In this document: piece after piece, positions 1 to 21,168 of the stretch
How the letters are laid out: every line of letters begins with the position of its first letter
Numbering within the stretch: the first letter of the stretch is position 1
DNA from: a virus
Direction: 5' to 3' (one strand)
DNA length: 35,479 nucleotides
Virus record (IMG/VR): IMGVR_UViG_3300037193_001674
Location: 1 to 35,479 of that record
Position numbers and translations under genes: made by a program
Notes under the pieces: model-generated
Seen by the model: only the letters and a program-made list of their open reading frames with translations
What the model was told of the DNA's origin: nothing
The model's database searches: none

Positions 1-1
1 C

Positions 2-3382: not shown

Positions 3383-3394
3383 GGGAGTACGTCG

Positions 3395-4019: not shown

Positions 4020-4213
4020 ATGCCAAATGGCTGTCGGTGGGCAACAGGGCAAAGCAGGCAGAGTGCCTGCGGCAACTTGCCGGCCTTGTCGAGTCTGGTG
4101 ATGTGCTAATCCAAAGCGCGAGTGTCGGTGCTGACTACCGCGGCTGGACGCTTGAAGTGCAAGCAGTAGCGCCGCCATCATCGAAGATACTGACGGACGA
4201 GGACGAGTCATGA
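4016..4213 (+). CDS. small hypothetical protein
   Basis: 65 residues from ATG 4016 with a good ribosome site (GAGAGGGG) and ATGA overlaps at both ends. The first half is a Leu-rich helix (LRQLAGLVESGDVLIQ), followed by a strand-like segment containing GWTLEV. It resembles small phage proteins of unknown role that precede terminase genes. No motif allows a function. Confidence 0.6.
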   Translation: MNAKWLSVGNRAKQAECLRQLAGLVESGDVLIQSASVGADYRGWTLEVQAVAPPSSKILTDEDES

Positions 4214-4533
4214 CCGAGAAGGCGCCGAACAACGGCGGCAAATGGAAGAAAGGGCAGAGCGGCAACCCCGGCGGCCGAGCGAAACAGGATTACCAGATCA
4301 AGGAGCTGGCGCGGAAGAAGTGTCCGAAGGCGCTGCGCATCCTTGAGCAGATTGCCGAGGGCGATGATCCGCGCGCCGCGGTCTCGGCCTGCATGGGCAT
4401 TCTCGCGTACGGCATCGGCAAGCCGGTGCAGCAGGTCGACCTGACGAACAGCGACGGCAGCATGTCGCAGGCGTGGCTCGCGGCGATGCGGTCGGTGGAC
4501 ACGGAAGCGACGGAGCAGCACGTTGAGCACTGA
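4210..4533 (+). CDS. small terminase subunit-like protein (DUF5681)
   Basis: 107 residues from ATG 4210. The N-terminal motif GKWKKGQSGNPGGRAKQ is the signature of the DUF5681 family, found immediately before large terminase genes in many phages. A helical body (LRILEQIAEGDDPRAAVSACMGIL) follows. By position and family it probably recognises the packaging site and feeds DNA to the large subunit. Confidence 0.72.
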   Translation: MTEKAPNNGGKWKKGQSGNPGGRAKQDYQIKELARKKCPKALRILEQIAEGDDPRAAVSACMGILAYGIGKPVQQVDLTNSDGSMSQAWLAAMRSVDTEATEQHVEH

Positions 4534-4560
4534 CACGCACTGCGAATACGAGGGCGCGAC

Positions 4561-4779
4561 TTGGCCGCTTGTTGCAAGTCGCGACCAGCGATTGCAATTC
4601 TTGAGCAAGAGGGTATCGATTGCCCGCCGGGTGGCTCTGGGGACTATCGAGCCACTATCGCTGTGGCGCTGCTGCGCGCGACGGCTGATGACTCGCTGAA
4701 CAATCGCGACATGCGATTAGCGTGCTTCTCGGCGATGGTCGAAGTTGAGCAAGTGTTGGAGGCTGCGGTGCTCGATTAG
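4561..4779 (+). CDS. small hypothetical protein, start uncertain
   Basis: 72 residues if started at TTG 4561; the frame is open from 4534 with no ATG or GTG nearby. The C-terminal half (MRLACFSAMVEVEQVLEAAVLD) looks like a real amphipathic helix, but the N-terminal half is weak. A second frame begins TTG 4523, overlapping the terminase small-subunit stop, reads plausibly to about 4620 and then degrades. The two together could be one gene broken by a frameshift near 4600. GC at third positions is lower than in neighbours. Confidence 0.35.
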   Translation: MAACCKSRPAIAILEQEGIDCPPGGSGDYRATIAVALLRATADDSLNNRDMRLACFSAMVEVEQVLEAAVLD

Positions 4780-6370: not shown

Positions 6371-8823
6371 GCATCGCTAGCACCGTCCGCGAGTTCTTCC
6401 GCGGCAAAGCTCCGCCGCTCGATAAGCCGTATCCGTCGCAGGCTGACAATGCGATCGTCTCCTACGAGCGCAACGGCCTGTACTCGTCGCTGATCAACGG
6501 CGAGAAGTACAACCAGGACGACCTCGTCGGGACCAAGGGTCTCGCCATCTACGCGCGCATGCTGGTGGATGAGCAGGTGAAGAGCGTCACGGAGTTCAAG
6601 CTCAACGCCATCCTCGGTCGCGGCTGGACGTTCAAGTTCCAGGGGCGCACCAAGCTGTCACCCGAGGAGCAGAAGCAGCGCATCGGCGTATTCGACGCCG
6701 TGTGCTCGCGCATCCGCGGCTCGTTCCTGGATGCGATCGAGGGCGTCGCCACCGGCCGCGAGTTCGGCTTCTCGGTCAGCGAAAAAGTCTACGGGCAGAT
6801 CCAGTACGACGGGCGCCAATGGACTGGCTTGAACATGCTGTTGACGCGCGATCCGAGCAGCTTTCGGTTCTACACCGACGACTACGGTCTGCTGACGAAG
6901 ATCACGCAGCGCACGAGCGGCAAGGAAGACGTGAACATCGACCCGAAAAAGGTCGTGCACTACGTCCACAAACCGAAATGGGACATGGTCTTCGGCCGCT
7001 CGGAGCTTCGTGCCGCGTATCGCGCGTGGTACCTGAAAGACATCACGCTCAAGATGTGGGCGCTGCACTTGGAGCGCTTCGGCAGCGGCATTCCGGTCGC
7101 GACGCGCACGGGCGACGCAGGTGGACTGAGCGGCCCGGACTTCGAGGCGTTCAAGCGGGTGATGGCCGACTTCAAGGCGCACACCAGCATCATCCTGCCG
7201 GTGGGCTACACGGCCGATGTGGTGTTTCCGACCTCCACCGACCAGTTCCAGAAGGCGCTGGAGTACCACGACCTTGCGATTGCGAAGTCGCAGCTCGTGC
7301 CGAACCTGCTCGGTCTGTCGCACACCGGCAGCACGGGCGCCTACGCGCAGTCACAGACGCAGTTTGAGGCGTTCTTCTGGACGACTTCGACCGACGGTAA
7401 GCGCATTGCCGAATGCCTGAACGAGCAGCTGTTCCGCGACTTGGGCGACCAGAACTGGGGCGACGGCGACTATCCGTATTTCTGCTTCAAGCCGATGACG
7501 CTGGAGAACGCCATCAAGCTCCTGACGGCGTTCAAGGACATGATCGGCGCGGGCGCGGCAACCGCCACCGAGGACGACGAGCGCTTCCTGCGCGAACTCC
7601 TGGAGCTGCCCGAGCGCACGGAAGAGTCGGAGCCGCTGATCGACCCGATGGCAGAGCGGCAGCAGACGCAGAGCGAGGAGCAGGCGCAGATCGACAACGA
7701 CCTGCGGCAGCAGGAACTCGACCAGAAGGCGAAGGCGGCGAACGCCGATCGCTACAGCGCGCCGCCGATCACCGTGACCGTACACAACCCGGCGCCATCC
7801 CCAGCAGCGGTTCATCAATCAACTGAGCCTGGCAACTCTCCGCAAGCTGGTGGCGCCGCGGTTGTCCCTCACGGGGCACTGCGTGCCAGCACCGTCGAGC
7901 AATTCACTCGGGCAGCCCAGCGCGTGGCGTTCTCGGTCATCGAAAAGCGCACCGACGACGTCGCCGAGAGCGCGGTCCCGCAGCTGGCGCGCATCGTCGC
8001 CAAGGCCGTCAAGCGCACGCTGGGCGATGACGCCAACATGGCGCAGTTGACCGACGAGGACCCGTCGGACGTGGCCGCCATCGACATCAACGGCGCCGAC
8101 CGCGGCAAGCTCAAGGGCGAGTTCCGCGAGATGCTGTCGACGGCGTGGACGCTCGGCAGCCAGCTTGCCGCCAACGAACTCGACCGCGCGCGCGGGGAGC
8201 GCACTAGCCTGGCTGCCCGTCGCGAGCGGTTCGCCAGCCTGCGCGACAACGCGGTGGCCTACTTCGACTCGCAGAGTTTCCGCATGGCCGGCGACACCTC
8301 GGACGCCACGCGCAAGATCATCCAGCAGGAGCTGCAGAACGGCATCAAGTACGGCCGCACGGTGCAGGAGATCCGCATAGCCATCTGGGAACGGCTGATC
8401 GAGCGCGGCTTGACCACGATGAGCGCGGTGTCGGGCGTCGAGACCGAGGAGGCGATCGTCAGCGCGCTGCAGGCGCTCGGTCTTGACGCCGCCGATGACG
8501 TGCCGGCGTACCTGAACACGCTCGTGCGCACCAACACGTTCGAGGCGCTGAATGAGGCGCGCTATGCCGAGTTCACCGATCCGGCCGTGGGCGACTTCGT
8601 CATGGCGCTCGAATACGCAGCGGTTCTCGACAGCAGCACAACGGAAATTTGCCGAGAACTGAACGGCAAGGTATATCGAAGCGACTCGCCGGAATGGGAT
8701 CAAATTCGCCCGCCGAATCACTTCAACTGCCGAAGTGTTCTGGTACCGGTGACGACGATTGACGGCTGGGATGGGCAGGAGAGTGAGCGGCCGGACGTGA
8801 CGCCGGCGGAGGGGTTCGGGTGA
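6367..8823 (+). CDS. portal protein (DUF935, Mu gp29-like) fused to MuF head-morphogenesis domain
   Basis: 818 residues from ATG 6367. Residues about 1-460 match the DUF935 portal family (VKSVTEFKLNAILGRGW, WALHLERFG, LSHTGSTGAYAQSQTQ). A Gln/Glu-rich helical linker leads to a second part, about 610-796, ending with the MuF signature: NEARYAEF, then EICRELNGKVY, and PPNHFNCRS. Portal (gp29) and minor head protein (gp30/MuF) are separate in Mu; here they are one chain, which forces equal copy number. It forms the DNA entry ring, and the MuF part likely sits inside the prohead. The fusion reads through without any internal stop. Confidence 0.9.
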   Translation: MSIASTVREFFRGKAPPLDKPYPSQADNAIVSYERNGLYSSLINGEKYNQDDLVGTKGLAIYARMLVDEQVKSVTEFKLNAILGRGWTFKFQGRTKLSPEEQKQRIGVFDAVCSRIRGSFLDAIEGVATGREFGFSVSEKVYGQIQYDGRQWTGLNMLLTRDPSSFRFYTDDYGLLTKITQRTSGKEDVNIDPKKVVHYVHKPKWDMVFGRSELRAAYRAWYLKDITLKMWALHLERFGSGIPVATRTGDAGGLSGPDFEAFKRVMADFKAHTSIILPVGYTADVVFPTSTDQFQKALEYHDLAIAKSQLVPNLLGLSHTGSTGAYAQSQTQFEAFFWTTSTDGKRIAECLNEQLFRDLGDQNWGDGDYPYFCFKPMTLENAIKLLTAFKDMIGAGAATATEDDERFLRELLELPERTEESEPLIDPMAERQQTQSEEQAQIDNDLRQQELDQKAKAANADRYSAPPITVTVHNPAPSPAAVHQSTEPGNSPQAGGAAVVPHGALRASTVEQFTRAAQRVAFSVIEKRTDDVAESAVPQLARIVAKAVKRTLGDDANMAQLTDEDPSDVAAIDINGADRGKLKGEFREMLSTAWTLGSQLAANELDRARGERTSLAARRERFASLRDNAVAYFDSQSFRMAGDTSDATRKIIQQELQNGIKYGRTVQEIRIAIWERLIERGLTTMSAVSGVETEEAIVSALQALGLDAADDVPAYLNTLVRTNTFEALNEARYAEFTDPAVGDFVMALEYAAVLDSSTTEICRELNGKVYRSDSPEWDQIRPPNHFNCRSVLVPVTTIDGWDGQESERPDVTPAEGFG

Positions 8824-9086
8824 GCGTGCTTGACCGGCTGAAGGCATGGCGACTGCACCGGCGCGAGGAAGGCTACAGAGCCGCGCATCGTCGCGGCCAT
8901 GACTGCAGATTCTGTGGGATACACGTCAGCTCGCGCGGCGCTGTATCTCGGCCGCTGTGGTCATACATGCGCTATTGCCCGTTCGATGTTCCTGAACTGC
9001 GCGGGAGAAAGAGGCCGCTGTTGCGTGAACTAGAGACAATCGGCGAGCACATCAGAACGCACGGATCGTACGTCGTGCCGCTATGA
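8820..9086 (+). CDS. small basic hypothetical protein with a CxxC pair
   Basis: 88 residues from GTG 8820 (GTGA overlap with the portal stop). Arg-rich N-terminus (LKAWRLHRREEGYRAAHRRG) followed by CRFCG, a possible half zinc site. No family recognised. Located in the head operon, but with no sign of a structural fold. Confidence 0.6.
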   Translation: MSVLDRLKAWRLHRREEGYRAAHRRGHDCRFCGIHVSSRGAVSRPLWSYMRYCPFDVPELRGRKRPLLRELETIGEHIRTHGSYVVPL

Positions 9087-9364
9087 GCCTTCCCTTCGCC
9101 GTCCTCTGCGCCCAACGCTCGACGCAGCTCACCGACGCCGAGCTGACGGAGCGCGCGTTCAAGACGTTCAACCGCTGGTCGATGCAGTCGTCCGGCAAGC
9201 TCGTGTCGCTGGATGAGGTCGCCTGGTGTGGCGCGCTGCTGCTCAAGGCGCTCAAGCAGTCGGGCATAGACGTCTTCAAGAACGAGACGGTCGACGAGAA
9301 CGGGGCGCGCGTGCTGGGCGTGGTGGCGAGCGATGGCGTGCGCGTGCAGGACGGTGCAGCGTGA
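9083..9364 (+). CDS. hypothetical protein of head operon
   Basis: 93 residues from ATG 9083 (ATGA overlap). Mostly helical (LTDAELTERAFKTFNRW, ALLLKALKQSGIDVF) with a short beta C-terminus. No signal peptide or catalytic motif. Likely a phage-specific head or accessory protein; function unknown. Confidence 0.6.
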   Translation: MSLPFAVLCAQRSTQLTDAELTERAFKTFNRWSMQSSGKLVSLDEVAWCGALLLKALKQSGIDVFKNETVDENGARVLGVVASDGVRVQDGAA

Positions 9365-9591
9365 TCATGATCTCGAACGCGCCAGTTAGCGGTGCGATTG
9401 ATTTCTCGAAACCATCTGGACCAGTTGTGGTCGGCAAGGTCACTTCTGTGCTGACCATTCAGTACGGCGATGCCTTCCTGTCTAGGGAGGTCGTCGCCGA
9501 CGAGTATGAGGATTTTCTGAGCGCCATCCAGCGCGTGGCGAATGACCTGTTTCAGGAGATTCGACAGGAGGCCCAAGTGACCGCTGGGTAA
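9361..9591 (+). CDS. small hypothetical protein
   Basis: 76 residues from GTG 9361 (GTGA overlap) or 74 from ATG 9367. A beta-rich N-terminal part precedes an acidic helix (EYEDFLSAIQRVANDLFQEI). Its last codons contain the AGGAGG that I assign to the following protease gene, and its TAA lies inside that gene. Unknown function. Confidence 0.5.
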   Translation: MIMISNAPVSGAIDFSKPSGPVVVGKVTSVLTIQYGDAFLSREVVADEYEDFLSAIQRVANDLFQEIRQEAQVTAG

Positions 9592-10657
9592 GACCCTCTA
9601 CGGCATCGAACTCATGTCCGTTGGCACGGCCAACGGCATCACGTTCACGCTGCGCGATCTCGAAGGCATAGTCACGGCCTTCGACGCCCTCGGCCTTTCC
9701 GGCCGTGTCCCCATCAAGTTCGGCCACAACGACGAGCAGCCGCTGACTGACGGTCAGCCTGCGCTCGGTTGGATTGGCCGCTTGTTCATGCAAGGTGACA
9801 TCCTGAAAGCGGATGCCACCGACATGCCGACCTCCGTCTACGAGATGGTCAAGGCCGGCCTCTACAAATTCGTTTCCGTGGAGCTGCTGAAAAACGTTCT
9901 GGCCGGTACGCGGACTATTCCGTGGGTGCTAGACGCAGTGGCTCTGCTGGGCGCCGATCAGCCCGCTTTCGGCAACCTTAAAGACCTTCAGTCGCTCACG
10001 CTCAAGCGAAAGCCTGCTTTGCAGGCTCGTGCTCGCGTCGCGTTCAAGCGGGACAAATTCACTTTCACAGGAGCCACCAAGGCTATGGACGAGAAAGAGG
10101 TTCAGGCAGCTATCACGGCTGCAGTTGCGAAGTCGACGGAGGAGCTGACTGCGAAGTTCACCAAGCAGCTCACCGACGAAGTCGCCAAGGTGCAGGCAAC
10201 GGCGAAAGCCGAAGCCGATGCGCGCGTCGCCAAGGCGCAGGCCGAATCGCACCGTGCGCAGATCAAGGCGAAGTTCGAGCACGCCGTCAAGGCGGAAGCG
10301 CTGCAGCCGGCGAAGCGCGAGTCGTTCTACAAGTACAACCGCGTGGACGACGACGCTGCCGTGACGCAGATCAAGCTCGAAGACGTGGACGCGTACATCG
10401 AAGAGTTCGGCGACAAGGCCAAGCTGTCGCGCGACCCGGCGACGAAGAAGGGGCAGGAGCCGAACGAGGACGAGAAGGGCCTGCGCGCCGATCAGATCCT
10501 GGCGTTGCGCGCCGACAAGCTCTGCTACTCGCGTCAGCAGGACCCGCGCAAGGGCGATCACTACTCGCGCGCGGTCGTCGAAGTCCTTCGCAGCGATCCG
10601 AAGCTGGCCGAAGCCTACAAGTACATGCCCGATACCGAGTATCGGCAGGCGTCGTAA
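9584..10657 (+). CDS. Mu I-like prohead protease/scaffold protein
   Basis: The protease-like part (GITFTLRDLEGIVTAFDAL, PIKFGHNDEQPLTDGQPALGWI, GLYKFVSVEL) matches the Mu I-protein family, which trims the head scaffold. From about residue 165 a long Lys/Glu/Ala coiled coil (VAKVQATAKAEADARVAKAQ) looks like internal scaffold, as expected when protease and scaffold share a gene. The start is unclear: homologous-looking sequence (KTLYGIELMSVG) begins before the first ATG (9614). CTG 9584 lies 12 bases after AGGAGG. A GTG at 9577 has ideal spacing but is out of frame. Directly upstream of decoration and capsid genes, as in Mu. Confidence 0.8.
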   Translation: MGKTLYGIELMSVGTANGITFTLRDLEGIVTAFDALGLSGRVPIKFGHNDEQPLTDGQPALGWIGRLFMQGDILKADATDMPTSVYEMVKAGLYKFVSVELLKNVLAGTRTIPWVLDAVALLGADQPAFGNLKDLQSLTLKRKPALQARARVAFKRDKFTFTGATKAMDEKEVQAAITAAVAKSTEELTAKFTKQLTDEVAKVQATAKAEADARVAKAQAESHRAQIKAKFEHAVKAEALQPAKRESFYKYNRVDDDAAVTQIKLEDVDAYIEEFGDKAKLSRDPATKKGQEPNEDEKGLRADQILALRADKLCYSRQQDPRKGDHYSRAVVEVLRSDPKLAEAYKYMPDTEYRQAS

Positions 10658-10674
10658 GGAGGCACCTGTAAACG

Positions 10675-11049
10675 ATGGCAACTGATCTGGAAATGAAACT
10701 GCTTCAAGTCGTCGCGGGTGCGGACTTGGACGGTGAGGGCGTGAAGTTCAAGGCGATCACGCTCAACGGCACAGTCGCAGCGACTCCGCTGCAAGCGGCT
10801 GGCGTCCTGCGCTACGGCGCGAAGAACGGCGAGACGGTCTCGGTCGCACACCGCGGCGAGTTCAAGGCGCTGTTCGGCGCGGCGGTCAACACCGTGGGCT
10901 ATCCGCTCACCGTGACGACTTCCGGCTGGATCATCGCGGCGTCGTCCGGTGGCGCATCAATCGGCCGCTCGCGCTCAACCTGCGCGTCGGGCGACTTGGC
11001 GCTGGCGTTCTTCGACTTCTCACAACTCGGTTACTCGACCGTAGCCTAA
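10675..11049 (+). CDS. head decoration protein (DUF2190-like)
   Basis: 124 residues from ATG 10675, with AAGGAGG ending 12 bases upstream; an in-frame TAA at 10669 excludes an earlier start. Beta-rich, with the typical DUF2190 flow: VAATPLQAAGVLRYGAKNGETVSVAHRGEFK, i.e. low-complexity small residues around a 'G-V-x-x-x-G' core. These proteins stabilise the mature capsid. Its place between scaffold/protease and capsid genes fits that role. Confidence 0.72.
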   Translation: MATDLEMKLLQVVAGADLDGEGVKFKAITLNGTVAATPLQAAGVLRYGAKNGETVSVAHRGEFKALFGAAVNTVGYPLTVTTSGWIIAASSGGASIGRSRSTCASGDLALAFFDFSQLGYSTVA

Positions 11050-11068
11050 TCAGGAGGGCTAGCCAAAG

Positions 11069-12040
11069 ATGGGTATTTCAAGCGGTCGAGACCTTCACAT
11101 CGACCAAAATCTGACCAACGTTGCGATCAACTACCGCCCGGTAGGAATGATCGCCGACATGATCGCGCCGATCGTGAACGTGTCGAAGGAAACGGACCTC
11201 TATCCAGTGTTCTCGCAGCGCGAGGCACTGGCGATCGAGGAAACGCGACGCTCGCGCGGCACGCTCGCGCATCGCATCACCCGCTCGGTCAGCTCCGAAG
11301 GCTACCGCGCGGAAAACTACGCGCTGGCGTACGACCTGCCGATCGAAGATCGGGCCAACATGGACGCGGCCTACGCGTTCGAGCTCGAAGGTGGCGCCAC
11401 ACGCTATCTGCTCGACAAGCTGATGCTGGACTGGGATCGGCGCGTGCTGGCGACCGTCGGTTCTGCCTCCAACGTGTCGACGGGCTTTCTGCCGTCGAGC
11501 GCGTGGGCGACCGGTGGCGATCCGGTGTCGCAGCTGTACCAGGTGATCGAACAGGTGCAGGCCACGACGGCGTACCGTCCGAACAGTCTCCTGTTCGGCT
11601 GGCGCGCCTACAACTGGTTCCGGCGCAACTCCAACGTCCGCAACTTCGTGCTCGGCTCGAACAACGGCGGCGGTGTGCTTCGGCGCCAGTCCATCGCGGA
11701 CATCTTCGAGGTCGAGCGCGTGCTCGTCTCGGAGGCGTTCTACAACAGCGCGAACGAAGCGCAGCCGATGGCGTTGGCGAACACGTTCCCGTCCGATGCG
11801 GTGCTGGCGTACTACGCGCCGGCGGCGCCGTCTCGCGAGACGCCGTCCTTCATGTACTCGTTCCGGTGGACCGCTCCGGGTCTGCCGACGCCGCTCGCCG
11901 TCGAACGTCATCCGTACGACAGCAAGCGGAAGATCGAGAGCATCGAGGCCGGCTACTACCAGGACGAGAAGATCACGGCATCGGGCCTCGGCGCCCTGAT
12001 CCGTGGCGTCAACTCGGCCCAGTCGAACGGCCTGACGTAA
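11069..12040 (+). CDS. major capsid protein
   Basis: 323 residues from ATG 11069, with AGGAGG 11 bases upstream. It begins without a clear delta domain (NLTNVAINYRPVGMIADMIAP), then shows SSEGYRAENYALAYDLP, a long helix (LLDKLMLDWDRRVLATVG) like the HK97-fold spine helix, and a C-terminal A-domain-like part (FMYSFRWTAPG). Composition and position after protease and decoration genes make it the main shell protein. It is the last gene before a hairpin terminator, consistent with high expression. Confidence 0.85.
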   Translation: MGISSGRDLHIDQNLTNVAINYRPVGMIADMIAPIVNVSKETDLYPVFSQREALAIEETRRSRGTLAHRITRSVSSEGYRAENYALAYDLPIEDRANMDAAYAFELEGGATRYLLDKLMLDWDRRVLATVGSASNVSTGFLPSSAWATGGDPVSQLYQVIEQVQATTAYRPNSLLFGWRAYNWFRRNSNVRNFVLGSNNGGGVLRRQSIADIFEVERVLVSEAFYNSANEAQPMALANTFPSDAVLAYYAPAAPSRETPSFMYSFRWTAPGLPTPLAVERHPYDSKRKIESIEAGYYQDEKITASGLGALIRGVNSAQSNGLT

Positions 12041-12055
12041 ATCCATGTCGAGTGT

Positions 12056-12082
12056 GGGCGGCGCCTGTGGCCGCCCTTCTTT
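12056..12082 (+). terminator. rho-independent-type terminator after capsid gene
   Basis: Perfect 7-bp stem GGGCGGC (12056-12062) with GCCGCCC (12070-12076), a 7-base loop and a following TTCTTTC. It lies 15 bases after the capsid stop and before the glycosyltransferase gene, separating the head operon from the island. The T tract is imperfect, so read-through is likely. Confidence 0.7.
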
Positions 12083-12106
12083 CAAGAGTCAACGCGGAGG
12101 AAATTG

Positions 12107-15100
12107 ATGGACGTCGTACTGCACAGCCACGGGATGCCTTTCAACGGCGAGACCGTCACCAAGAAGTCACTGGGCGGAAGCGAAAGCGCAGCGTACTACC
12201 AGGCGCGCGAACTGGCGCGACGTGGTCACCGCGTCACCGTTTTCACTTCCTGCCCAGATGAAGGCGTCTGGGACGGCGTCGCGTACTGTTACGCGGGCCA
12301 GCCGACTGAGGCGACGCCGCTCGGCGAGCGCTTCGAGTTCTACGCGCGCAACACGCCGCACGACGTACTGATCATTCAGCGGCAGCCGCATGGCTTCCAC
12401 CATCAGTTTGCGAGCAAGGTGAACATCTGGCAGCTGCACGACCTCGCGCTACACCGCACGGCCGCGCTCGCCAACCACGGCATGTGGCAGATCGACGCCG
12501 TGACGTGCGTGTCGGACTGGCACAAGAAGCAGGTGTGCGAGGTGTACGGCTTCGATCCGGCGTTCGTGAAGGTCGTGCCGAATGGGGTGGATGAGTCGCT
12601 TTATACCGGATGGAACACGCCTGACTTGCAGATGTTCATTAGCGAGGTTTTGAACAAGCACTCTGGCAAGTTCCTGCTCCTCTACCAATCGCGCCCCGAA
12701 CGCGGCCTCGAACACCTCGTGCGGCCCGGCGGCATCATGGACCGCCTGCGCGACACCAACGCGCACCTACTCGTGTGCAGCTACGACAACACGATGCCGG
12801 GCATGGTGAACTACTACGGCATGCTGCACCGCTGGGCCGATGCGCTGCCGAACGTCACGATGCTCGGCGCACTGACGAAGCCGCAGCTGGCGGCGCTGCA
12901 GAAGTCCTGCGACCTGATGGTGTACCCGACGGAGTTCGAGGAAGTCAGCTGCATCTCGGCCATGGAGGCAATGCATGCGGGCCTGCCGATGCTCACCTCA
13001 GTCGTCGGCGCGCTGCCCGAGACGTGTCAGCTTGTGGATGCGGGCGTGGAATTCATTCAGCTGAAGGATGGACGCGCGGACGAGGATGAGTTCGTCACGT
13101 GGATCACCAACTACGCGCACCTCGCGCCTTCGATGCTGCCGCAACGAGAGAAGCAGCTTGCCGCCGCCAAGTACCGCACCTGGTCAAAGGCTGTCGACCA
13201 TCTGGAGGCGGTTATCGGCGCGTGCATGGAGAAGCGCAGCGGTAGCGAATCGGCGGCCATTCGCCACTGCGTTGAGCATAGCGATATCGTCGCAGCGCTC
13301 GACGACGCCTTTCTGGACAAGGCATTCGGCGATCGGATCATGGCGCACAGCCACGGAGAGTTCGCCGAGCTCTACGCCTTCACCGAGTCTCCCGCCGCCT
13401 ACGCTGCCCACTACGCCAAGCACCAAGGCGTCTACTACGACGACCACGAAGACAAGGTGATCGGCGAGGACGTGACGCGCACGAACCGCTTTCTGGCGGT
13501 CGCGATGTCGGTCGAACGGGAGATGAAGATCGCCGGCGAGGAATTGCGCGTGCTCGACTACGGCTGCGCGCACGGCCACTACATGATGCCGCTGGCGAAG
13601 GCGTTCCCGGCGGCGCGCTTCGTCGGCGTGGACGTGTCGGAGCGCGCGATCGGCGCCGCGCTCAAGTGGGTGCAGCGGGACAACCTCACGAACGTCGAGC
13701 TGCGCCTCGGCAATCAGGAAGCGCTCAAGGACGTGAGCACACTCTGCCCGCTGGTGTACGACGAGGACTCGCTGCACTACGAGGGCAACACCGTCGTCGC
13801 CAAGCAGTCACACCGCGACCTGTTCGACATCATCATCGCGGGCGAAGTTGTCGAGCATGTGCCGGACTGGCGCGAGCTGCTGGAAGATTTCCGCAACGTC
13901 CTCAAACCTGGCGGGCTTCTCATTGTGACGACGCCGTACGGCCGCTGGGAATGGTCCGGCACCGAGGCGTTTCGGGAGGCCCGCGAGCACCTGCATCACT
14001 TCGAGCGTCCCGACATCGTCGATATCTGCGGCCGCAACGAGGTCCAGATCGGCTACGCGCCGGCGGGCCACGACAAGACCGGCAAGCCGCTGGGTTCGTG
14101 GATCTGGAGTGTGCGCCCGCGCGAGCCGTTCGCGGGTATCGACTACGAGCGCAAGCGCGAACAGCTGTGCCCGCGCGAGACCCTGTCGGCGTGCCTCATC
14201 GTCAAGGACGGCGAGAAGACGCTGCGCAAGTGCATCGAGTCGTTCATCGACTGGGTCGATGAGGTCGTGATCGCCATCGACCCGAAGACCAAGGACCGCA
14301 CGCGCCAGGTAATCGAGGCGCTGGAACGCGACTACCGCTGGAAGCCGTTCACGGTGTTCGAGGGTCTGGTGGCGCTGGAAGAAGGCTTCGACGCCGCGCG
14401 CAACCTCACCGTCGAGCGCGCCTGCGGTGACTGGATTCTCTGGGTCGACGCCGATGAGGAAGTGCGCAATCCGCAGAACCTGTGGAAGTACCTGCGCCCC
14501 TCGCACCACAACGCGTTCGGCTTCCCGCAGGTGCACTACTCATCGGACCCCGATCAGGTGCTGACGACCGACTACCCGTGCCGGCTGTTCCGCAACGGCA
14601 TGGGCATCAAGTTCTATGGCGTCGTCCATGAGCACCCCGAAGTCGAGTGCGGCAAGGCGATTCCACGCGCGGCGCTGCGTCACGACGTCAAGTTCCTGCA
14701 CGCGGGCTACGTCGATGAGGACGTGCGGCGCGCGCGGTACATGCGCAATCTGCCGCTCCTGCATCGCGACCGTGAGAAGTACCCGGACCGCGGCCTGAAC
14801 CGATTCCTGGTCCTGCGCGACATCGCGCAGGGGCTCATGTTCGAACACGAGCAGACGCGTGGGGCGGTGCTCGAAGGACATCGCGAGCGAGCGCTGCAGG
14901 GCATCGAGCTGTTCGAGCAGATTCTCGACAAGGACCCGACGCGCATGGCGGTGGACTCGCTGCAGTTCTATTCGCACTGCGTGCAGACGACCGGCGGCGG
15001 CTTCGAGGCCGAGATCGACTACACGGTGGCGACACCGCAGGCGCCCGATCTCGGCTGCAAGATGCACTTCAAGGGCCGATTTGTTTCACGCGACCACTAC

Positions 15101-15163
15101 ACCAAGCTCATGCGCAAGATCGAAGAGGAGGCTACTCGCCACTATGAGTCGAAGTATCTTTAA
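12107..15163 (+). CDS. three-domain glycosyltransferase (GT4)-SAM methyltransferase-glycosyltransferase (GT2)
   Basis: 1018 residues from ATG 12107 (GGAGG 6 bases upstream). Residues about 1-400: GT-B fold GT4-type transferase with GGSES near 24, VPNGVD near 157 and EVSCISAMEAMHAGLP near 280. Residues about 450-680: class I methyltransferase with SAM motif VLDYGCAHGHYM near 482, VGVDVSE, and DIIIAGEVVEHVPDW then LKPGGLLIVTTP. Residues about 690-1000: GT-A transferase of GT2 type with SACLIVKDGEKTLRKCIES and WILWVDADEE near 778 (nucleotide-sugar/metal-binding DAD). It should build and methylate a glycan, probably cytoplasmic since no membrane segment is seen. Sitting right after the capsid gene, a virion protein is a likely acceptor; a host-surface glycan is the alternative. 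Confidence 0.88.
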   Translation: MDVVLHSHGMPFNGETVTKKSLGGSESAAYYQARELARRGHRVTVFTSCPDEGVWDGVAYCYAGQPTEATPLGERFEFYARNTPHDVLIIQRQPHGFHHQFASKVNIWQLHDLALHRTAALANHGMWQIDAVTCVSDWHKKQVCEVYGFDPAFVKVVPNGVDESLYTGWNTPDLQMFISEVLNKHSGKFLLLYQSRPERGLEHLVRPGGIMDRLRDTNAHLLVCSYDNTMPGMVNYYGMLHRWADALPNVTMLGALTKPQLAALQKSCDLMVYPTEFEEVSCISAMEAMHAGLPMLTSVVGALPETCQLVDAGVEFIQLKDGRADEDEFVTWITNYAHLAPSMLPQREKQLAAAKYRTWSKAVDHLEAVIGACMEKRSGSESAAIRHCVEHSDIVAALDDAFLDKAFGDRIMAHSHGEFAELYAFTESPAAYAAHYAKHQGVYYDDHEDKVIGEDVTRTNRFLAVAMSVEREMKIAGEELRVLDYGCAHGHYMMPLAKAFPAARFVGVDVSERAIGAALKWVQRDNLTNVELRLGNQEALKDVSTLCPLVYDEDSLHYEGNTVVAKQSHRDLFDIIIAGEVVEHVPDWRELLEDFRNVLKPGGLLIVTTPYGRWEWSGTEAFREAREHLHHFERPDIVDICGRNEVQIGYAPAGHDKTGKPLGSWIWSVRPREPFAGIDYERKREQLCPRETLSACLIVKDGEKTLRKCIESFIDWVDEVVIAIDPKTKDRTRQVIEALERDYRWKPFTVFEGLVALEEGFDAARNLTVERACGDWILWVDADEEVRNPQNLWKYLRPSHHNAFGFPQVHYSSDPDQVLTTDYPCRLFRNGMGIKFYGVVHEHPEVECGKAIPRAALRHDVKFLHAGYVDEDVRRARYMRNLPLLHRDREKYPDRGLNRFLVLRDIAQGLMFEHEQTRGAVLEGHRERALQGIELFEQILDKDPTRMAVDSLQFYSHCVQTTGGGFEAEIDYTVATPQAPDLGCKMHFKGRFVSRDHYTKLMRKIEEEATRHYESKYL

Positions 15164-15686
15164 CCGGCTGCTCGGGGCGGTTCGCGTCCTGAACGGGACG
15201 GTGGACCTGCAGTCGTTCGTACCGGTCGAAGGTTACTTCGACGTGAAGGTCGTGCGCGCCGACGGCAAGATCGAAGCCAAGACGCTGCGCAACACCGTGA
15301 CGGTCACCGGCCTGAATCGCTTGGCCGCCGCGGCGGTGAACTCGGCGGCCGGCGTGGTCAACGCGCTGGTGGTCGGCAGTGCGACGGCGTCGCCGGCGCT
15401 CACTGACTCGCAGTCGAGCTTCGGTGAGATTTCCAGAAAGTCGATGATCTCGCAGGCGCAATCGCGCGAGTGGTTCTTCGGCGTCGCAACCTGGGGCGGC
15501 GCCGCCGACAGCATCACGTCGGTAACGCTGAACTCGGCGGGGCTCACGATCGGCACATCGTCACTCGCAACGTCGTTCGTCATGAACCGCGTGAACGGTT
15601 TGGGCGTGACGCTCGGCAATTCGGACTTCCTGAACCTCACGGTGCGCGTGCGGGTCGGCTCGCACGACGTAGCTCACTCGTCGTAG
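15144..15686 (+). CDS. putative small structural protein of the decoration island
   Basis: 180 residues from ATG 15144 (AGGAGG 12 bases upstream), overlapping the glycosyltransferase gene by 20 bases. Beta-rich and Ser/Thr/Ala/Val-rich. The middle, NTVTVTGLNRLAAAA followed by VVNALVVGSATASPALTDSQ, is like phage surface/tail-fibre-type proteins in which 'G-x-N-x-L-A' precedes 'VGSG...P...'. No enzyme motif. Lying between glycosyltransferase and radical SAM genes and rich in Ser/Thr, it is a candidate acceptor for modification, but this is inference only. Confidence 0.6.
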   Translation: MSRSIFNRLLGAVRVLNGTVDLQSFVPVEGYFDVKVVRADGKIEAKTLRNTVTVTGLNRLAAAAVNSAAGVVNALVVGSATASPALTDSQSSFGEISRKSMISQAQSREWFFGVATWGGAADSITSVTLNSAGLTIGTSSLATSFVMNRVNGLGVTLGNSDFLNLTVRVRVGSHDVAHSS

Positions 15687-15710
15687 CGGAGGCAGTGTGG
15701 AGCGCGTTGG

Positions 15711-16403
15711 ATGAAGGCCGTACCCGTTCGCGAAATCCACGAGATCGAGCTGAGTTCGAAATGTACTCTCGCTTGCCCGTATTGCTGTCATCCAACGCTG
15801 CAGCGTCCCAAGGACCACATGCCATGGGACGTGTTCGAACGGACCATCGAACACATAGCCTATCTCTGCCGCGCCGGAACTCAGGGTGAGGTTTCACTAA
15901 CCGGTATCGGCGAAGCAATTCTTCATCCGAGATTCGCGGAAGCTTTGGAGATTACCCGCAGGACGATCGGTAGTCGTCCGTTGATCCTCGCGACGAATGG
16001 CACTGACGTTACGTCTGAGTTGGCAAGGCTGCTGGCTGCGAATGACGTTGGGGTATACGTCTCATTGCATCGGCCAGAGGTTGCAGCGCCTGCCATGCGC
16101 GTGCTTGAGGAAGCCGGATGCCGTATTGGCCACAATACCGCCTTCGTTGATTCATCAATGAACTGGGCCGGACAAGTCGATTGGCATGTCTCAATGCAAA
16201 AGGGATTCACCTGCGGATACCTGTCTCGAGGGTGGGCAGTGGTCCGCCAAGATGGAGGCGTCAATGCTTGCTGTATGGACGCTCACGGCAAGCACAAGTT
16301 GGCAACGGTTTGGGATGAACCGGGCTCACTGAATACTTACGTGATCCCTCTGTGTGCATCCTGTAACTTCATGGTTCCTGCAGAGCTGCAGGAGGCGGCG
16401 TGA
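15711..16403 (+). CDS. radical SAM protein with SPASM/twitch-like C-terminus (copy 1)
   Basis: 230 residues from ATG 15711. Cys18-x3-Cys22-x2-Cys25 binds the radical SAM 4Fe-4S cluster; GIGE (65-68) is the SAM amino-group motif; LATNG (93-97) is also typical. The C-terminal Cys168-x13-Gly182-x4-Cys187, with Cys188 and Cys215-x2-Cys218, matches the opening CX(9-15)GX4C plus CX2C pattern of SPASM/twitch domains that bind auxiliary clusters. Such enzymes oxidise or epimerise peptides or sugars; the substrate here is unknown. Its 3' end overlaps the opposing HNH gene by 35 bases. Paralogous to the gene at 16951. Confidence 0.82.
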   Translation: MKAVPVREIHEIELSSKCTLACPYCCHPTLQRPKDHMPWDVFERTIEHIAYLCRAGTQGEVSLTGIGEAILHPRFAEALEITRRTIGSRPLILATNGTDVTSELARLLAANDVGVYVSLHRPEVAAPAMRVLEEAGCRIGHNTAFVDSSMNWAGQVDWHVSMQKGFTCGYLSRGWAVVRQDGGVNACCMDAHGKHKLATVWDEPGSLNTYVIPLCASCNFMVPAELQEAA

Positions 16404-16935
16404 TGAGCGCGCGCACCCATATCTTGCCGGAGATGATGCGATCGATGGTGCGCCTGGAAACTCCGATTCGCTTGGCGATTCGCATATTCGGCTCACCGCT
16501 CGCGCTGGCTGCGCGAATGATTCCAACGGTCTCTGCCGTAAGCTTCTTGGCCCGGCGTGGACTGACGGTCGCGTCGAGGCGGCCGGCGAGTACAGAATGC
16601 CTGATGTTCTGCCTGCTGCTGCACCATTCCAAGTTGGTCGCAGCGTTGTTGTCGACTTTGAAATCCCTATGGTTGACGTGTGAGTCGGCTTGCGGCGGTT
16701 CGCCGATGAAAGCAGTCGCGACGAGTCGATGCACTTTCTTCGTCTCAACTTTCTTGCCGCTGGAGAGGTGGACCTGTAAGTATCCGCGTCGGTCAGGTGC
16801 TTGCCTGAGAACTTTGCCGATGGTCGTGTACTTGCTAGATCGATTCGGCACGATGTGCGGCAGACTGCGAACACGACCGAGAGAGCTGACTTCGTACAGA
16901 CCTTCGTACCCGACTACCGCTTTCCATATTTCCAT
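16369..16935 (-). CDS. HNH homing-type endonuclease (NUMOD4-HNH-HTH)
   Basis: 188 residues from ATG at 16935 (an earlier in-frame ATG at 16971 would overlap the divergent gene). Residues 2-25 carry the NUMOD4 motif (IWKAVVGYEGLYEVSSLGRV). His69 and HVNHRDFKVDNNAATNLEW (86-104) form the HNH nuclease core. Residues 132-172 form a helix-turn-helix (MRIAKRIGVSRRTIDRIISG). It is a free-standing selfish nuclease inserted between the two radical SAM paralogues, opposite to all neighbours, overlapping copy 1 tail-to-tail and starting 16 bases from the start of copy 2. Confidence 0.88.
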   Translation of the reverse strand: MEIWKAVVGYEGLYEVSSLGRVRSLPHIVPNRSSKYTTIGKVLRQAPDRRGYLQVHLSSGKKVETKKVHRLVATAFIGEPPQADSHVNHRDFKVDNNAATNLEWCSSRQNIRHSVLAGRLDATVSPRRAKKLTAETVGIIRAASASGEPNMRIAKRIGVSRRTIDRIISGKIWVRALITPPPAALQEP

Positions 16936-16950
16936 GCGGGAAATTATCTC

Positions 16951-17637
16951 ATGCTGATCCGAGCGATTCATCAAATTGAGATGACTTCCCGATGCAATCT
17001 TTCCTGCAAATATTGTGTCCACAAGAAAATGCCGCGTCCGAAAATGGACATGGACGAGGCGACGTATGCGAAGGCGCTCAAGTGGGTGCAGTTCTTCCAA
17101 GCGCGCAAGCCGCACCCGGAGCTGAATCTCGCCGGCATCGGTGAGTCGACGATGCATCCTGATTTTGTGCGCAATGTGTTTCTCGCGCGCGAGGCCGTCG
17201 GTGTGAACGTCAATCTCGTCCTCGCGACGAATGGTTTGCTGATGACCGACGAACTCGCACGCGCCATAGCGCCGGCTAAGCCGTCGGTGTGGGTATCGCT
17301 GCATCGCCCGGAGCGCGCCGGCCCGGCGGTTGAAGCACTGAAGCGCGCCGGCATCTTCTCTGGCGTGTCAGCCGATCCGTCGCTCGCCGCGGTGAACTGG
17401 GCGGGGCAGGTTAACTGGCATGTGTCAGCGCCGCGCGGCGAGGTCTGCGGCTGGATTCAGGCCAGCATGGTGATGGTCATGTCGGACGGTCGCGTCACGC
17501 GCTGCTGCTTCGATGCGACCGGCGACGGCGTGATCGCGACCGTCGATGACGACCTCAGCAAGCACGCAACTTCTCCGTGGCATCTCTGCGCCGGCTGCCA
17601 TCTCAGTGTGCCGCAGGAGGCTGCTAGTGCGGCGTGA
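16951..17637 (+). CDS. radical SAM protein with SPASM/twitch-like C-terminus (copy 2)
   Basis: 228 residues from ATG 16951; the frame extends upstream to 16801 but that part lies under the HNH gene. Cys15-x3-Cys19-x2-Cys22 cluster site, GIGE at 62-65, LATNG at 91-95, and Cys166-x13-Gly180-x4-Cys185 with Cys186 and Cys213-x2-Cys216. It keeps NWAGQVNWHVS and VSLHRPE, also found in copy 1, so the two are tandem paralogues with conserved active-site spacing but diverged sequence. The ribosome site is weak, possibly because the HNH insertion removed the original leader. Likely works with the upstream transferase protein. Confidence 0.82.
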   Translation: MLIRAIHQIEMTSRCNLSCKYCVHKKMPRPKMDMDEATYAKALKWVQFFQARKPHPELNLAGIGESTMHPDFVRNVFLAREAVGVNVNLVLATNGLLMTDELARAIAPAKPSVWVSLHRPERAGPAVEALKRAGIFSGVSADPSLAAVNWAGQVNWHVSAPRGEVCGWIQASMVMVMSDGRVTRCCFDATGDGVIATVDDDLSKHATSPWHLCAGCHLSVPQEAASAA

Positions 17638-18731
17638 CGATTGCGCGCGTCATACGGAACGTCAGGCCGAGTGCTTCGGCTTCTCTTGAGTCTGACTGGC
17701 AGGCGCGGATCGCCAACTCCGTCTGGTATCACGACTTTCGGACCAGTCGCGAGGTCGATAATTTCCGTTGGACGCTGAATTTCGGCAACAACCCTAACGC
17801 AGCGACTTTCCCCTCTGCGCCTTTGTGCCGTCGCATCACGAGTGATGGCATTACCGGCGCCTGCTTGGAAATCGTTCGTGACGCGACAGTGGGCGACGGC
17901 AACTTCACTTATTGGCAGCGTCCATTCGTACCTATGTCGGGCGGTACGACGACTGGCAATGGACGCGGCGTTGGCGAAGACGACCCGGCCGCCAACGGCA
18001 CTGTGCCGCTATACACGGATTGGGACCCATCGAATCCAGGAGAGGAAGAGCAATTCTCTGGCGGCGGCTGGTACGGCACCGACACATCTGGCCCCGGCGG
18101 CGCTGCCGAGTTCACCGGCGAGGAGTACTTCATGCAGGCTCGCGTGAAGATGGACCCACGGCGCCGGCAGGGCATCAATGCGGATGAGCAGAGCGGGAAA
18201 CTCTTTTACTTCACGCGCAGCGATCGATCTGGAACAGACCAAGAGATCGTTGTCGAGAGCTACCGCGCCGGTGGCGGCAACAACAATTTCTACATGTATC
18301 GGTCATTCAGCCCGGCGCTCGCCGAAGATTCTCCAGGCATAGCCGTGCATGGCAATCAACCTGGCACGGAGTTCGGATCGGTCGGCGACGGCGCATGTCG
18401 CTTCGACAACAACGGCGGTCGCTATGCCAATTGTTGGTTCTGGCCTGACGATGAGTGGGTGACGATGCAATGGGCGGTCAGGCCAGGCGACAATGGCAGC
18501 GGCGGCACTCACGTCAGAGTGTGGGCGGCTCGTTATGGCGAGACGGCTTTCACGAAGATTTGGGACCAGCCAGACGTGGACTTGCCCTTCGACGCCAGCT
18601 TCCCATTTGGACACAACGCGCTCATCTGCTCTGTGTACCACAACGGGGCGACGATGACTGAGTTCTGGCATCGCTACTGCCAGATCATATTCGCCCACCA
18701 GTTCATCGCCTGCCCGCAGGTGTACGCATGA
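17634..18731 (+). CDS. lectin/polysaccharide-lyase-like beta-rich protein, putative virion surface protein
   Basis: 365 residues from GTG 17634 (GTGA overlap; AGGAGG 13 bases upstream). Rich in Gly, Asn, Asp, Trp and Tyr, without signal peptide, as in secreted beta-sandwich proteins. The order VWYHDFRTSREVDNF ... ITGACLEIVRDA ... GEEYFMQARVKMDP ... KLFYFTRS ... WPDDEWVTMQWAVRPGDNG ... GHNALICSVYHNGA resembles concanavalin A-like glucanase/lyase folds. No catalytic pair can be named safely. The N-terminal MTIARVIRN is shared with the next protein and may be a docking peptide. Likely a capsid or tail surface decoration. Confidence 0.55.
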   Translation: MTIARVIRNVRPSASASLESDWQARIANSVWYHDFRTSREVDNFRWTLNFGNNPNAATFPSAPLCRRITSDGITGACLEIVRDATVGDGNFTYWQRPFVPMSGGTTTGNGRGVGEDDPAANGTVPLYTDWDPSNPGEEEQFSGGGWYGTDTSGPGGAAEFTGEEYFMQARVKMDPRRRQGINADEQSGKLFYFTRSDRSGTDQEIVVESYRAGGGNNNFYMYRSFSPALAEDSPGIAVHGNQPGTEFGSVGDGACRFDNNGGRYANCWFWPDDEWVTMQWAVRPGDNGSGGTHVRVWAARYGETAFTKIWDQPDVDLPFDASFPFGHNALICSVYHNGATMTEFWHRYCQIIFAHQFIACPQVYA

Positions 18732-19771
18732 CCATCGTGCGCATCATTCGCGGCGCAGGTGTTGCTCCGGGAGGCGGCAGCTCGGCCCTCGCGCTCGCGT
18801 GCGCAGCGCTATCGTCGGGCCAGTCTGCGACTTTCGCATCTGGCGCGCAGTCGGAGTTCAGTGAAGACGACGTCGCTTGGCAGACGGCGTTTTATCACGA
18901 CGATCTGCACGGCCTGCTGCATCTGATGGCAAAGCCGCAGAACGCCGCGTCGGCGTGGGGCCATCAGATATACGACATCGCTGCCGGCACATGGGGCAAC
19001 TTGTCGGACGGGATGTGGAACAACGACGGCCACATCTACGGCAACACCGCGATCGATTTCGATACTGGCGACATTTACCAATCGCGCAATAACGCCGGCA
19101 CGGGAACCCCAGATTTCGGCCGTCGCGCACGTTGGTGGAAGTACAGCGAGCAGGACTGGGATTCTGTGGCGCCTGTATCGCAGGACATCTACAGCGGTGC
19201 AATGAACGCTACGCCCAACGGCTTGGCATGGCACCCGAACTTGTTCGGCACTGGAGACGGCGGTCTCATCTGGGGCGATCAGGTGAGCTTCCTCTACTGG
19301 CGCAAAAGCAATGATGCCGTATCGCGCCGCGCCATCGGCACCGACGAGTACGGCGCGCGAGAATCAGGTGCGGTCTACTGGCCTGCGCAGGATGCGGTCC
19401 TGATTGGTGGATCGCGTGTGCCGGACATATCCAATCTGGCGATGATCACGCCGAACCCGACGCCGGGCGGCGACCCGGTTCTGACTGATTTGAGCGCACC
19501 TCCCATGTCAGTTCGCGGCGGCTCTCACAGTAGTAGTGGCGTCTTTGGTTCGATCCATGTTCATCCTGGCAACCCGAACAAGGTGCTCATTCTTGAGAGT
19601 GCTGGATCTGACGCATACGAGAGCACGGACGGCGAGAACTGGACACAGATCGGCGACCACCCCTTCACATTGGAGCCCCGTGTGGTCTGTTCTCTGCGCG
19701 GAAACCTAGGCTGCATGCTCGCGGTTGGCGCCGTCAGCACAACGCCACGACTCTGGAGGCCACCGACCTAA
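18728..19771 (+). CDS. beta-propeller-like protein, putative virion surface protein
   Basis: 347 residues from ATG 18728 (ATGA overlap). After MTIVRIIRGAGV and an Ala/Ser-rich segment, repeated blade-like units appear (YGNTAIDFDTGDIYQ, GLAWHPNLFGTG, GAVYWPAQDAVLIGG, GSIHVHPGNPNKVLILES, AYESTDGENWTQIG), the last like a BNR/sialidase-type Asp-box. No catalytic residues can be assigned. Probably a virion-exposed binding or glycan-acting protein working with its neighbours. Confidence 0.5.
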   Translation: MTIVRIIRGAGVAPGGGSSALALACAALSSGQSATFASGAQSEFSEDDVAWQTAFYHDDLHGLLHLMAKPQNAASAWGHQIYDIAAGTWGNLSDGMWNNDGHIYGNTAIDFDTGDIYQSRNNAGTGTPDFGRRARWWKYSEQDWDSVAPVSQDIYSGAMNATPNGLAWHPNLFGTGDGGLIWGDQVSFLYWRKSNDAVSRRAIGTDEYGARESGAVYWPAQDAVLIGGSRVPDISNLAMITPNPTPGGDPVLTDLSAPPMSVRGGSHSSSGVFGSIHVHPGNPNKVLILESAGSDAYESTDGENWTQIGDHPFTLEPRVVCSLRGNLGCMLAVGAVSTTPRLWRPPT

Positions 19772-19773
19772 CC

Positions 19774-21168
19774 ATGCCTCTCGTCAATACAGGGCTGGTC
19801 TGCCGCTACTACTTCGACGAGGCCGCGTCAGGCTCTACGCCGACGCAGGTCGATGACACCAGCGGTAACGCTTACCACCTGACCGAGATCAACTACGGCG
19901 GCGGTAATCTCGCGTGGAATGAGATCAGCGGCAATCGTGGACTTGAGTCCACCAGCACCAGCGGCACGCAGCGCGCACGCCGCAGCGTCAACAATACTAG
20001 CGACGCTCTGCGCGACGCGCTCGCGGGGACGGCGGTCGTTACCTTCGAGCTGGTGTTGGATGTGCACACCGGCAATGCGAGCACTGCGCGGGTTTGCGCG
20101 ATCAATGATCGCATTGGTGGCAGCCCTGTCGTCGGCGTAGCCGCAACCAATACGAGCTACCGCTTCTATTGGAACGGCTCGGCGCTCACCGACATCGCGC
20201 TGAGTGCTGGCCGCCATGTCCTGCACTTCGTGATCGATACCGGACTGGGCAGCAACCAGTACAAGCTGTACATCGACGGCACAAACACCAACAACAACAG
20301 CGCCACGGGAACGTTGACGATCGGCAGCAATGTCGACCTGATCTGTTTCAACCGCGAGACAGGGGGTCCTGGCTTCGAACGTTCGTTCGACGGCGTTCTG
20401 TACTATGCCGCGATCTATGACGCTGCGCTTTCAGACGCGGATGTCACGACCAACTACGACATCCTGACCCTCGACGACGACGAGCCTGCCGGCGGCGGTG
20501 GCGGCACGATCAACGAGGAAGTGCTGGAGGACACCATCTCGGTCACCGACCAGCCGCTCGACTATGTGTTCTTCAATCGTCGCCCGGAATCGTTCATCGC
20601 GCTGAGCGACGAGATGATCGCAACGCTTGTAGGCACGATCGCGAAGATCATGACCGACACGCTGGACGTTACCGACGGCTCAGTGTTCTCGGTCTACCGC
20701 AACCGCCTGCTGCAGGACACGATCATCCTCAGCGAGGGTCCGACCGAGCAGTACATCACGACCAACATCGTTGCCGATGACGTCATCGACATCGTCGACT
20801 CGGTCATCCGCTACGTGAATTACACGCGCCTCGGCTCTGACTCGCTGGTGATCAGCGACAGCCTCATCTCGGCGGTCATCAATTACGTGGTCAATACCGC
20901 TGTGCTGTCGAGCACGCTAACGGTCACTGATCAGGCCAGCTGGTTCGTCTATTACACCCGGCTGGTGGAAAGCGCGATTGCGCTCACCGATCAGTCGCTC
21001 AGTCAGCTGCAACGCTTTATTTTGCTGACCGACCTGCTTTCGGTGGATGATTCAGCCACGGCGACGTACGTACCTGATCCAGGCACGCCGGGGACGGTCT
21101 ATAACCCGGTCATCAGGATCGGCTTCGACCAGCCGCGTATCGACATCGGAGGCTATAGCTTGCATTGA
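19774..21168 (+). CDS. LamG/concanavalin A-like domain protein with C-terminal tandem repeats
   Basis: 464 residues from ATG 19774 (GGAGG 14 bases upstream). Residues 1-235 form a LamG-type jelly roll: GLVCRYYFDEAASGS at the start, QYKLYIDGTNTN, and FDGVLYYAAIYDAALSDADV, the classic closing strand of LamG_3. After a Gly-rich hinge comes a run of about nine 20-22-residue repeats (see separate entry), then a short tail. Probably a sugar-binding fibre or spike on the head or the head-tail joint. Its stop overlaps the next gene. Confidence 0.72.
   Translation: MPLVNTGLVCRYYFDEAASGSTPTQVDDTSGNAYHLTEINYGGGNLAWNEISGNRGLESTSTSGTQRARRSVNNTSDALRDALAGTAVVTFELVLDVHTGNASTARVCAINDRIGGSPVVGVAATNTSYRFYWNGSALTDIALSAGRHVLHFVIDTGLGSNQYKLYIDGTNTNNNSATGTLTIGSNVDLICFNRETGGPGFERSFDGVLYYAAIYDAALSDADVTTNYDILTLDDDEPAGGGGGTINEEVLEDTISVTDQPLDYVFFNRRPESFIALSDEMIATLVGTIAKIMTDTLDVTDGSVFSVYRNRLLQDTIILSEGPTEQYITTNIVADDVIDIVDSVIRYVNYTRLGSDSLVISDSLISAVINYVVNTAVLSSTLTVTDQASWFVYYTRLVESAIALTDQSLSQLQRFILLTDLLSVDDSATATYVPDPGTPGTVYNPVIRIGFDQPRIDIGGYSLH
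20518..21069 (+). repeat. about nine tandem 20-22-residue protein repeats
   Basis: Degenerate coding repeat with core [LS]-x-D-[TS]-[IL]-x-[VIL]-[TS]-[DE]-x(6-8)-Y-x(3-5)-R-[LR]. Examples: LEDTISVTDQPLDYVFFN, MTDTLDVTDGSVFSVYRN, GSDSLVISDSLISAVINY, VESAIALTDQSLSQLQRF. Even spacing suggests a beta-solenoid or stacked hairpin stalk. Divergence at DNA level argues for an old, selected repeat. Confidence 0.75.

Follow-up and report, generated by a model that had tools for sequence, protein, structure and literature searches.

A candidate glycan-tailoring cassette with a glycosyltransferase fusion and paired radical SAM proteins in the head module of uncultivated phages

The virus record IMGVR_UViG_3300037193_001674 of IMG/VR (35,479 bases), called the window here, carries a cassette of genes directly downstream of its major capsid gene, all in the same direction. 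These genes encode a single protein that joins a GT4-type glycosyltransferase (GT), a methyltransferase (MT) and a GT2-type glycosyltransferase (hereafter, the fusion), a small Ser/Thr-rich protein, and two radical S-adenosylmethionine (SAM) proteins, rSAM1 and rSAM2. We lean slightly towards the reading that this cassette builds a glycan on the virion and then modifies it. Dozens of divergent contigs have these genes in the same module too, a recurrence far beyond chance. An initial annotation had taken the cassette for a virion decoration pathway and had suggested a search for other phages with the fusion next to the same radical SAM pair.

Relatives were fetched by scanning IMG/VR with the rSAM alignment (76 loci) or with the fusion (best 80 of 156) as bait, and homologues of the window genes were mapped on all loci obtained with both baits. 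It should be noted that bait-based sampling can overstate co-occurrence, that the contigs are mostly fragments and that the records may be incomplete. A subset of 34 contigs covers the region from the portal to the connector genes. Isolated phages were compared by tblastn against 50,697 isolate records.

The fusion and its place beside the capsid gene

The fusion (12107-15163, plus strand) is 1018 aa long, and the matches of its three domains all exceed the curated Pfam cut-offs, in agreement with the initial annotation. The GT4-type domain (12107..13276, about residues 1-390) matches Glyco_transf_4 (3e-14) and Glyco_trans_1_4 (2e-8) and has an EX7E motif at E279/E287. It is followed by the SAM-dependent methyltransferase domain (13424..14101, about residues 440-665; Methyltransf_23, 5e-19), with the motif LDYGCAHG at 483-490, and by the GT2-type domain with a C-terminal extension (14174..15163, about residues 690-1018; Glycos_transf_2, 2.5e-11), which carries DAD at 781-783 and HEHPE at 841-845. 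The residues of these four motifs are near-invariant among 87 sequences (mostly at least 0.93), D781 and D783 of the DxD motif being kept in 99% of them, and no membrane segment was seen in the fusion.

In a profile search, the best relatives of the GT2 domain in the PDB were GmaR (2e-18) and SunS (4e-8). GmaR puts N-acetylglucosamine onto flagellin (PMC9638930). The GT2 domain can be aligned with these enzymes over about 200 residues and shares a DxD-type motif with them; transfer to protein or peptide, which is known for GmaR and SunS, is predicted here. Unlike them, the GT2 domain of the window belongs to a larger protein that also has GT4 and methyltransferase domains, and the tetratricopeptide repeats (TPR) of GmaR were not detected in that protein with Pfam, whereas a split relative in contig L058 does have a GT2-TPR protein. 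This split form, with separate GT2-TPR and MT-GT4 proteins and one rSAM gene, was observed at 5-12 kb of both L058 and L065, and appears to be an alternative arrangement of the same pathway. The full-length fusion had no tblastn match in isolated phages, where only the separate domains were found (26-31% identity).

As the initial annotation had it, the cassette lies between the major capsid and connector genes. The major capsid gene (11069..12040, plus strand; phrog_1005, 8.1e-58) is identified also by synteny and is the constant upstream neighbour of the fusion, while the connectors (head-tail adaptor and neck) start at 21454, after three genes that are unassigned or of LamG type (17634-21168). 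The fusion overlaps the small gene by 20 bp and rSAM2 also overlaps the next gene, which fits the expectation for one operon.

Every one of the 34 portal-to-connector contigs has the fusion 3' of the capsid gene, a count that holds partly by construction because the contigs were fetched with the GT or rSAM genes as bait. More independent are about 40 rSAM-baited contigs that carry the fusion, or its split form, in the locus. In three others (L055, L036 and L042) the fusion is elsewhere in the record, and all rSAM-baited contigs that reach more than 4.5 kb beyond the capsid gene have it. Moreover, the distances of fusion and capsid proteins are correlated over 76 contigs (r=0.795, 0/2000 permutations), although Mantel tests on related sequences reflect shared descent as well as coupling. 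The fusion is in this sense a phage-encoded glycosyltransferase inherited with virion genes, as expected of virion glycosylation systems. A dozen contigs have no other open reading frame of at least 110 aa between capsid and connector, and in L190 the fusion gene runs into the start of the connector. L190 is a 45.8-kb phage-type contig in the bin of a Zixibacteria metagenome-assembled genome (MAG), and the stretch that was read (1-19901) has no rSAM gene; its bin is possibly a hint of the host or a case of mis-binning.

The small protein (15144..15686, plus strand) has 180 aa with 21% Ser+Thr and a weak match to phrog_4176 'tail fiber' (2e-7), a match shared by 23 of the 46 members of its family, in line with its description as structural-like in the initial annotation. 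Its AlphaFold model, of moderate confidence (predicted local distance difference test, pLDDT, 78.6), is beta-rich, and Foldseek matched it to phage fibre and archaeal-virus proteins. It is likely a virion component. The small protein was undetected in 14 of the 34 fully covered contigs, which makes it a poor candidate for the sole substrate of the cassette, and it had no match in isolated phages.

The radical SAM pair

rSAM1 (15711..16403, plus strand; Radical_SAM, 4e-10) and rSAM2 (16951..17637, plus strand; Radical_SAM, 1.3e-11) are 228-230 aa long and belong to clades 1 and 2, respectively, of one family of radical SAM/Twitch proteins, as alignments and the tree show, and rSAM2 is also identified by its model and its match to BtrN. 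The initial annotation was right to call them paralogous radical SAM proteins. The CX3CX2C motif (C15, C19, C22) is invariant in 71 sequences, as are four C-terminal cysteines (C166, C185, C213, C216) that could ligate one predicted auxiliary cluster, which is the pattern of a Twitch domain with full ligation (PMC6231123, PMC9012708). The SPASM domain has a seven-cysteine motif and two auxiliary clusters (PMC6231123). In the same 71 sequences the CX2CX5CX3C segment is missing and the four cysteines mentioned are the only invariant C-terminal ones, so that of the 'SPASM/twitch-like' C-termini first proposed only the Twitch part can be kept.

The model of rSAM2 (pLDDT 96.9) shows a partial barrel plus the Twitch fold. 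BtrN, a Twitch-domain radical SAM dehydrogenase of butirosin biosynthesis, was the closest match in profile, Foldseek and fold comparison (Z 20.2, 2.6 A, 210 residues), followed by ChlB (Z 16.3) and anSME (Z 15.6). The ChlB, anSME and viperin-like matches were judged to be general superfamily resemblance. BtrN oxidises an aminocyclitol and four cysteines ligate its auxiliary cluster (PMC9012708); it shares with the window proteins the CX3CX2C motif, the single auxiliary site with four cysteines, the fold and a similar size. Nevertheless, identity is only 17%, and the rSAM proteins here differ from BtrN in being nearly restricted to viruses and in forming two clades that are encoded together. 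The fold matches of rSAM2 also include SpeY and DesII (Z about 12-13), which are longer and less similar than BtrN and belong to antibiotic pathways. Both are radical SAM enzymes that alter carbohydrates.

The tree separates two old clades, one of which has 39 rows (Shimodaira-Hasegawa-like approximate likelihood ratio test, SH-aLRT, 97). Outside one deep branch, all 25 contigs with two copies have a member of each clade, the order being variable, and the two clades co-evolve (r=0.855, n=23). The pair occupies one of three alternative sites: the gap between portal and protease, the gap between capsid and fusion, or a position 3' of the small gene. A search of the whole records that lack rSAM in the head module gave one copy elsewhere in that of L112 and none in the others; with L112 as an exception, almost every locus examined that has the pair has it within the head module. 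In contigs that cover the site, rSAM was always accompanied by the fusion, while the fusion often occurs without rSAM. This one-way dependence would fit rSAM enzymes that act on the product of the fusion.

Further candidate sugar enzymes accompany the cassette in other phages. Extra GT2 genes lie beside rSAM in L043, L054 and L055, and stand-alone methyltransferases in L055, L066, L126 and L129. In L134 a short-chain dehydrogenase/reductase (SDR) gene (12838-13512, 9.6e-60) is located directly 3' of the fusion and suggests sugar oxidation or reduction in another lineage. Among neighbour families of at least 80 aa, none that could be a peptide substrate or precursor tracks the presence of rSAM beyond small lineage-specific groups.

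rSAM1 and rSAM2 had no match in the isolate records at the sensitivity of tblastn. Among about 85,000 bacterial and archaeal species scanned for their relatives there was a single close match, on a phage-type contig binned in a Zixibacteria MAG; the other matches were distant rSAM proteins. By these searches, the pair is nearly virus-restricted.

The gene list of the initial annotation was incomplete at the junction of the pair, where it overlooked a gene on the minus strand (16369..16935) for a NUMOD4/HNH homing endonuclease (NUMOD4, 1.2e-14; HNH_3, 1e-6). This gene is an intruder and stands outside the pathway. It is absent from the nearest relative, L008, in which the stop of rSAM1 and the start of rSAM2 overlap, and hence the endonuclease was most likely inserted at this junction in the window's own lineage. 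Relatives of the endonuclease adjoin rSAM1 in L015 and L019 and precede the fusion in L107, which indicates that the region attracts homing endonucleases. Many antisense 'HNH' matches of an iterative profile search were discarded as antisense open reading frames over rSAM genes; a clean single-sequence search retains HNH only in the window and these three contigs.

The proposed pathway and its alternatives

From the domains, conserved catalytic residues, synteny, co-inheritance with the capsid, rSAM pairing and one-way rSAM dependence we infer an acceptor, a modified sugar, an order of steps, a type of reaction and a benefit. The soluble fusion would work in the cytoplasm of the infected cell, where its GmaR/SunS-like GT2 domain would link a sugar to an acceptor protein, the GT4 domain would extend the glycan and the middle domain would methylate it. 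The acceptor would likely be the major capsid protein or a further core protein of the head, since these are the only constant neighbours of the fusion. In lineages with rSAM, the two Twitch-type enzymes could then abstract a hydrogen atom from this sugar, in a BtrN-like manner, and so bring about its oxidation or epimerisation, acting in sequence or in cooperation. A changed particle surface would be the likely gain, with effects on receptor or mucus binding, stability or escape from recognition. In its most specific form, in which the fusion builds a methylated glycan on the capsid or cement protein and the obligately paired rSAM enzymes convert the protein-bound sugar by oxidation or epimerisation into an unusual one, the proposal is tentative and we would not expect it to hold in every part.

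Several points weigh against a glycan pathway for the particle. The position of BtrN Arg152, the proposed active-site base, is occupied by an invariant Trp150 in the rSAM family according to a profile alignment, so the chemistry may differ from that of BtrN. The rSAM genes are missing from 15 of the 34 covered head modules and shift their place, and have to be regarded as accessory. The relatives of the methyltransferase domain act on many kinds of substrate, adjacency to the capsid gene is no proof that the capsid is the substrate, and the whole case is built on sequence and models. What is retained of the decoration pathway of the initial annotation is a glycan pathway tied to virion genes, as seen in the fixed place, the conserved motifs, the likeness of the GT2 domain and the company of rSAM and glycan enzymes.

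It could be that the rSAM pair instead modifies a side chain of a virion protein by epimerisation, cross-linking or formylglycine-like oxidation, in the style of anSME or of the maturases of ribosomally synthesised and post-translationally modified peptides (RiPPs), this or another residue being glycosylated by the fusion. We regard this as rather unlikely. The structural matches after BtrN are peptide-modifying enzymes (ChlB, anSME, SkfB, CteB, SuiB), clustering of Twitch/SPASM sequences does not predict function (PMC6231123), and the tryptophan in place of Arg152 counts on the same side; nonetheless, BtrN is closest in both sequence and fold, 228-230 aa leave no room for a leader-binding RiPP recognition element (RRE) domain, sugar-type enzymes accompany rSAM and no candidate peptide family of at least 80 aa follows it, the small lineage-specific groups apart.

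Phage glycosyltransferases that alter the host O-antigen are well known, and PHROGs classes the GT families nearest to the fusion as moron or host-takeover genes. The fusion and rSAM could accordingly alter surface glycans of the host, for receptor masking or superinfection exclusion, with a place in the head operon that only sets late timing. This is an unlikely explanation given that no membrane segment was seen in the fusion, that its GT2 domain is nearest to protein glycosyltransferases and that the gene, unlike typical morons, has a constant site between capsid and connectors and shares the inheritance of the capsid gene. Hypermodification of the phage genome, with GT and rSAM acting on modified bases, is very improbable. 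Glucosyltransferases that act on DNA are found in phages, and some pathways of thymidine hypermodification use radical SAM enzymes, but only 3 of the 29 related records have a gene of the thymidylate-synthase/dCMP-hydroxymethylase family above the cut-off, TET/JBP was found in 0/29 (a weak negative, as the control of that search gave no signal), the nearest GT2 relatives act on proteins and the gene is located in the head operon. The initial annotation had named random cargo that changes position relative to the capsid genes as the opposing case, and this was found for the rSAM pair in part, with its three places, whereas the fusion is fixed. A moron region unlinked to the virion would also explain the patchy presence of rSAM (at least nine changes on the fusion tree) and the homing endonucleases that invade the area. 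It has hardly any probability in our view, since the fusion is constant in its position and diverges along with the capsid, and since the pair lies outside the head module in hardly any locus and was found together with the fusion wherever the contig covers the site.

Neighbouring genes and known systems

Upstream of the cassette, the portal gene (6367-8823) encodes Portal_Mu plus Mu_F, and a cement/decoration-type protein (10675..11049, plus strand) has weak matches below the cut-offs to Phage_cement (0.0017) and Phage_cement_2 (0.0023) and one to phrog_673 (3e-6). A hairpin 3' of the capsid gene (12056..12076, plus strand; seven G-C pairs, then T-rich) is a weak terminator candidate, since the count of terminator-like sites in the region is not above that of shuffles. 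A 'portal' label considered for 4745-6370 was dropped, as this gene matches only a PHROG of unknown function, and so was 'TerL' for 1041-2915, whose 624-aa product carries malectin and fibronectin type III (fn3) domains and is possibly a further carbohydrate-binding virion protein. Between cassette and connectors, 19774-21168 encodes a Laminin_G_3 (concanavalin A-like lectin) protein with homologues in many related contigs; in others its slot holds carbohydrate-binding module (CBM), beta-helix and fn3 proteins. The tail region contains a DUF6950 protein (28494-28901, 3.5e-18). G+C is 0.56-0.57 in the stretch of rSAM1 and the endonuclease (15711-16950) vs 0.62-0.64 in the fusion, rSAM2 and capsid genes.

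Capsid glycosylation encoded by the phage is known from mycobacteriophages such as Che8 and Rita (Freeman et al. 2023, as cited in PMC11256854). The likeness lies in the phage glycosyltransferases; according to that citation, theirs put a glycan on the major capsid protein that is thought to shield the particle, while the glycan of the present system is a predicted one. In the cluster F1 phage Maravista, which is related to Che8 and Rita, the GT genes are near the 3' end of the genome (PMC11256854) and not beside the capsid gene as here, and the window differs from the mycobacteriophages also in its single GT4-MT-GT2 fusion and its rSAM enzymes. Isolates of the same capsid family have capsids of 26-30% identity. 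Two of them, Roseobacter phage RDJL Phi 1 and Microbacterium phage ValentiniPuff (27-28%), keep the order of capsid and then neck genes, but at the site of the fusion they carry nothing beyond short hypothetical genes, with no annotated glycan enzymes or rSAM there.

In the open literature searched, which covered few subscription papers and preprints, no description was found of such a fusion with paired rSAM in a head module, and the Twitch radical SAM pair was not reported as part of a virion-glycan pathway. Phage capsid glycosylation is already known, and no precedent was found, among isolated phages and in this literature, for radical-chemistry tailoring of a virion surface. Virion glycosylation in phages is known from few cases, and here it seems to be an integral part of the core head module in a large group of uncultivated phages, a lineage for which the moron or host-takeover filing of the nearest GT families in PHROGs would mislead. 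If the proposal is true, the cassette would provide new sugar-tailoring enzymes, a clear system in which to test what phages gain from coating the capsid, and a marker by which to recognise the group.

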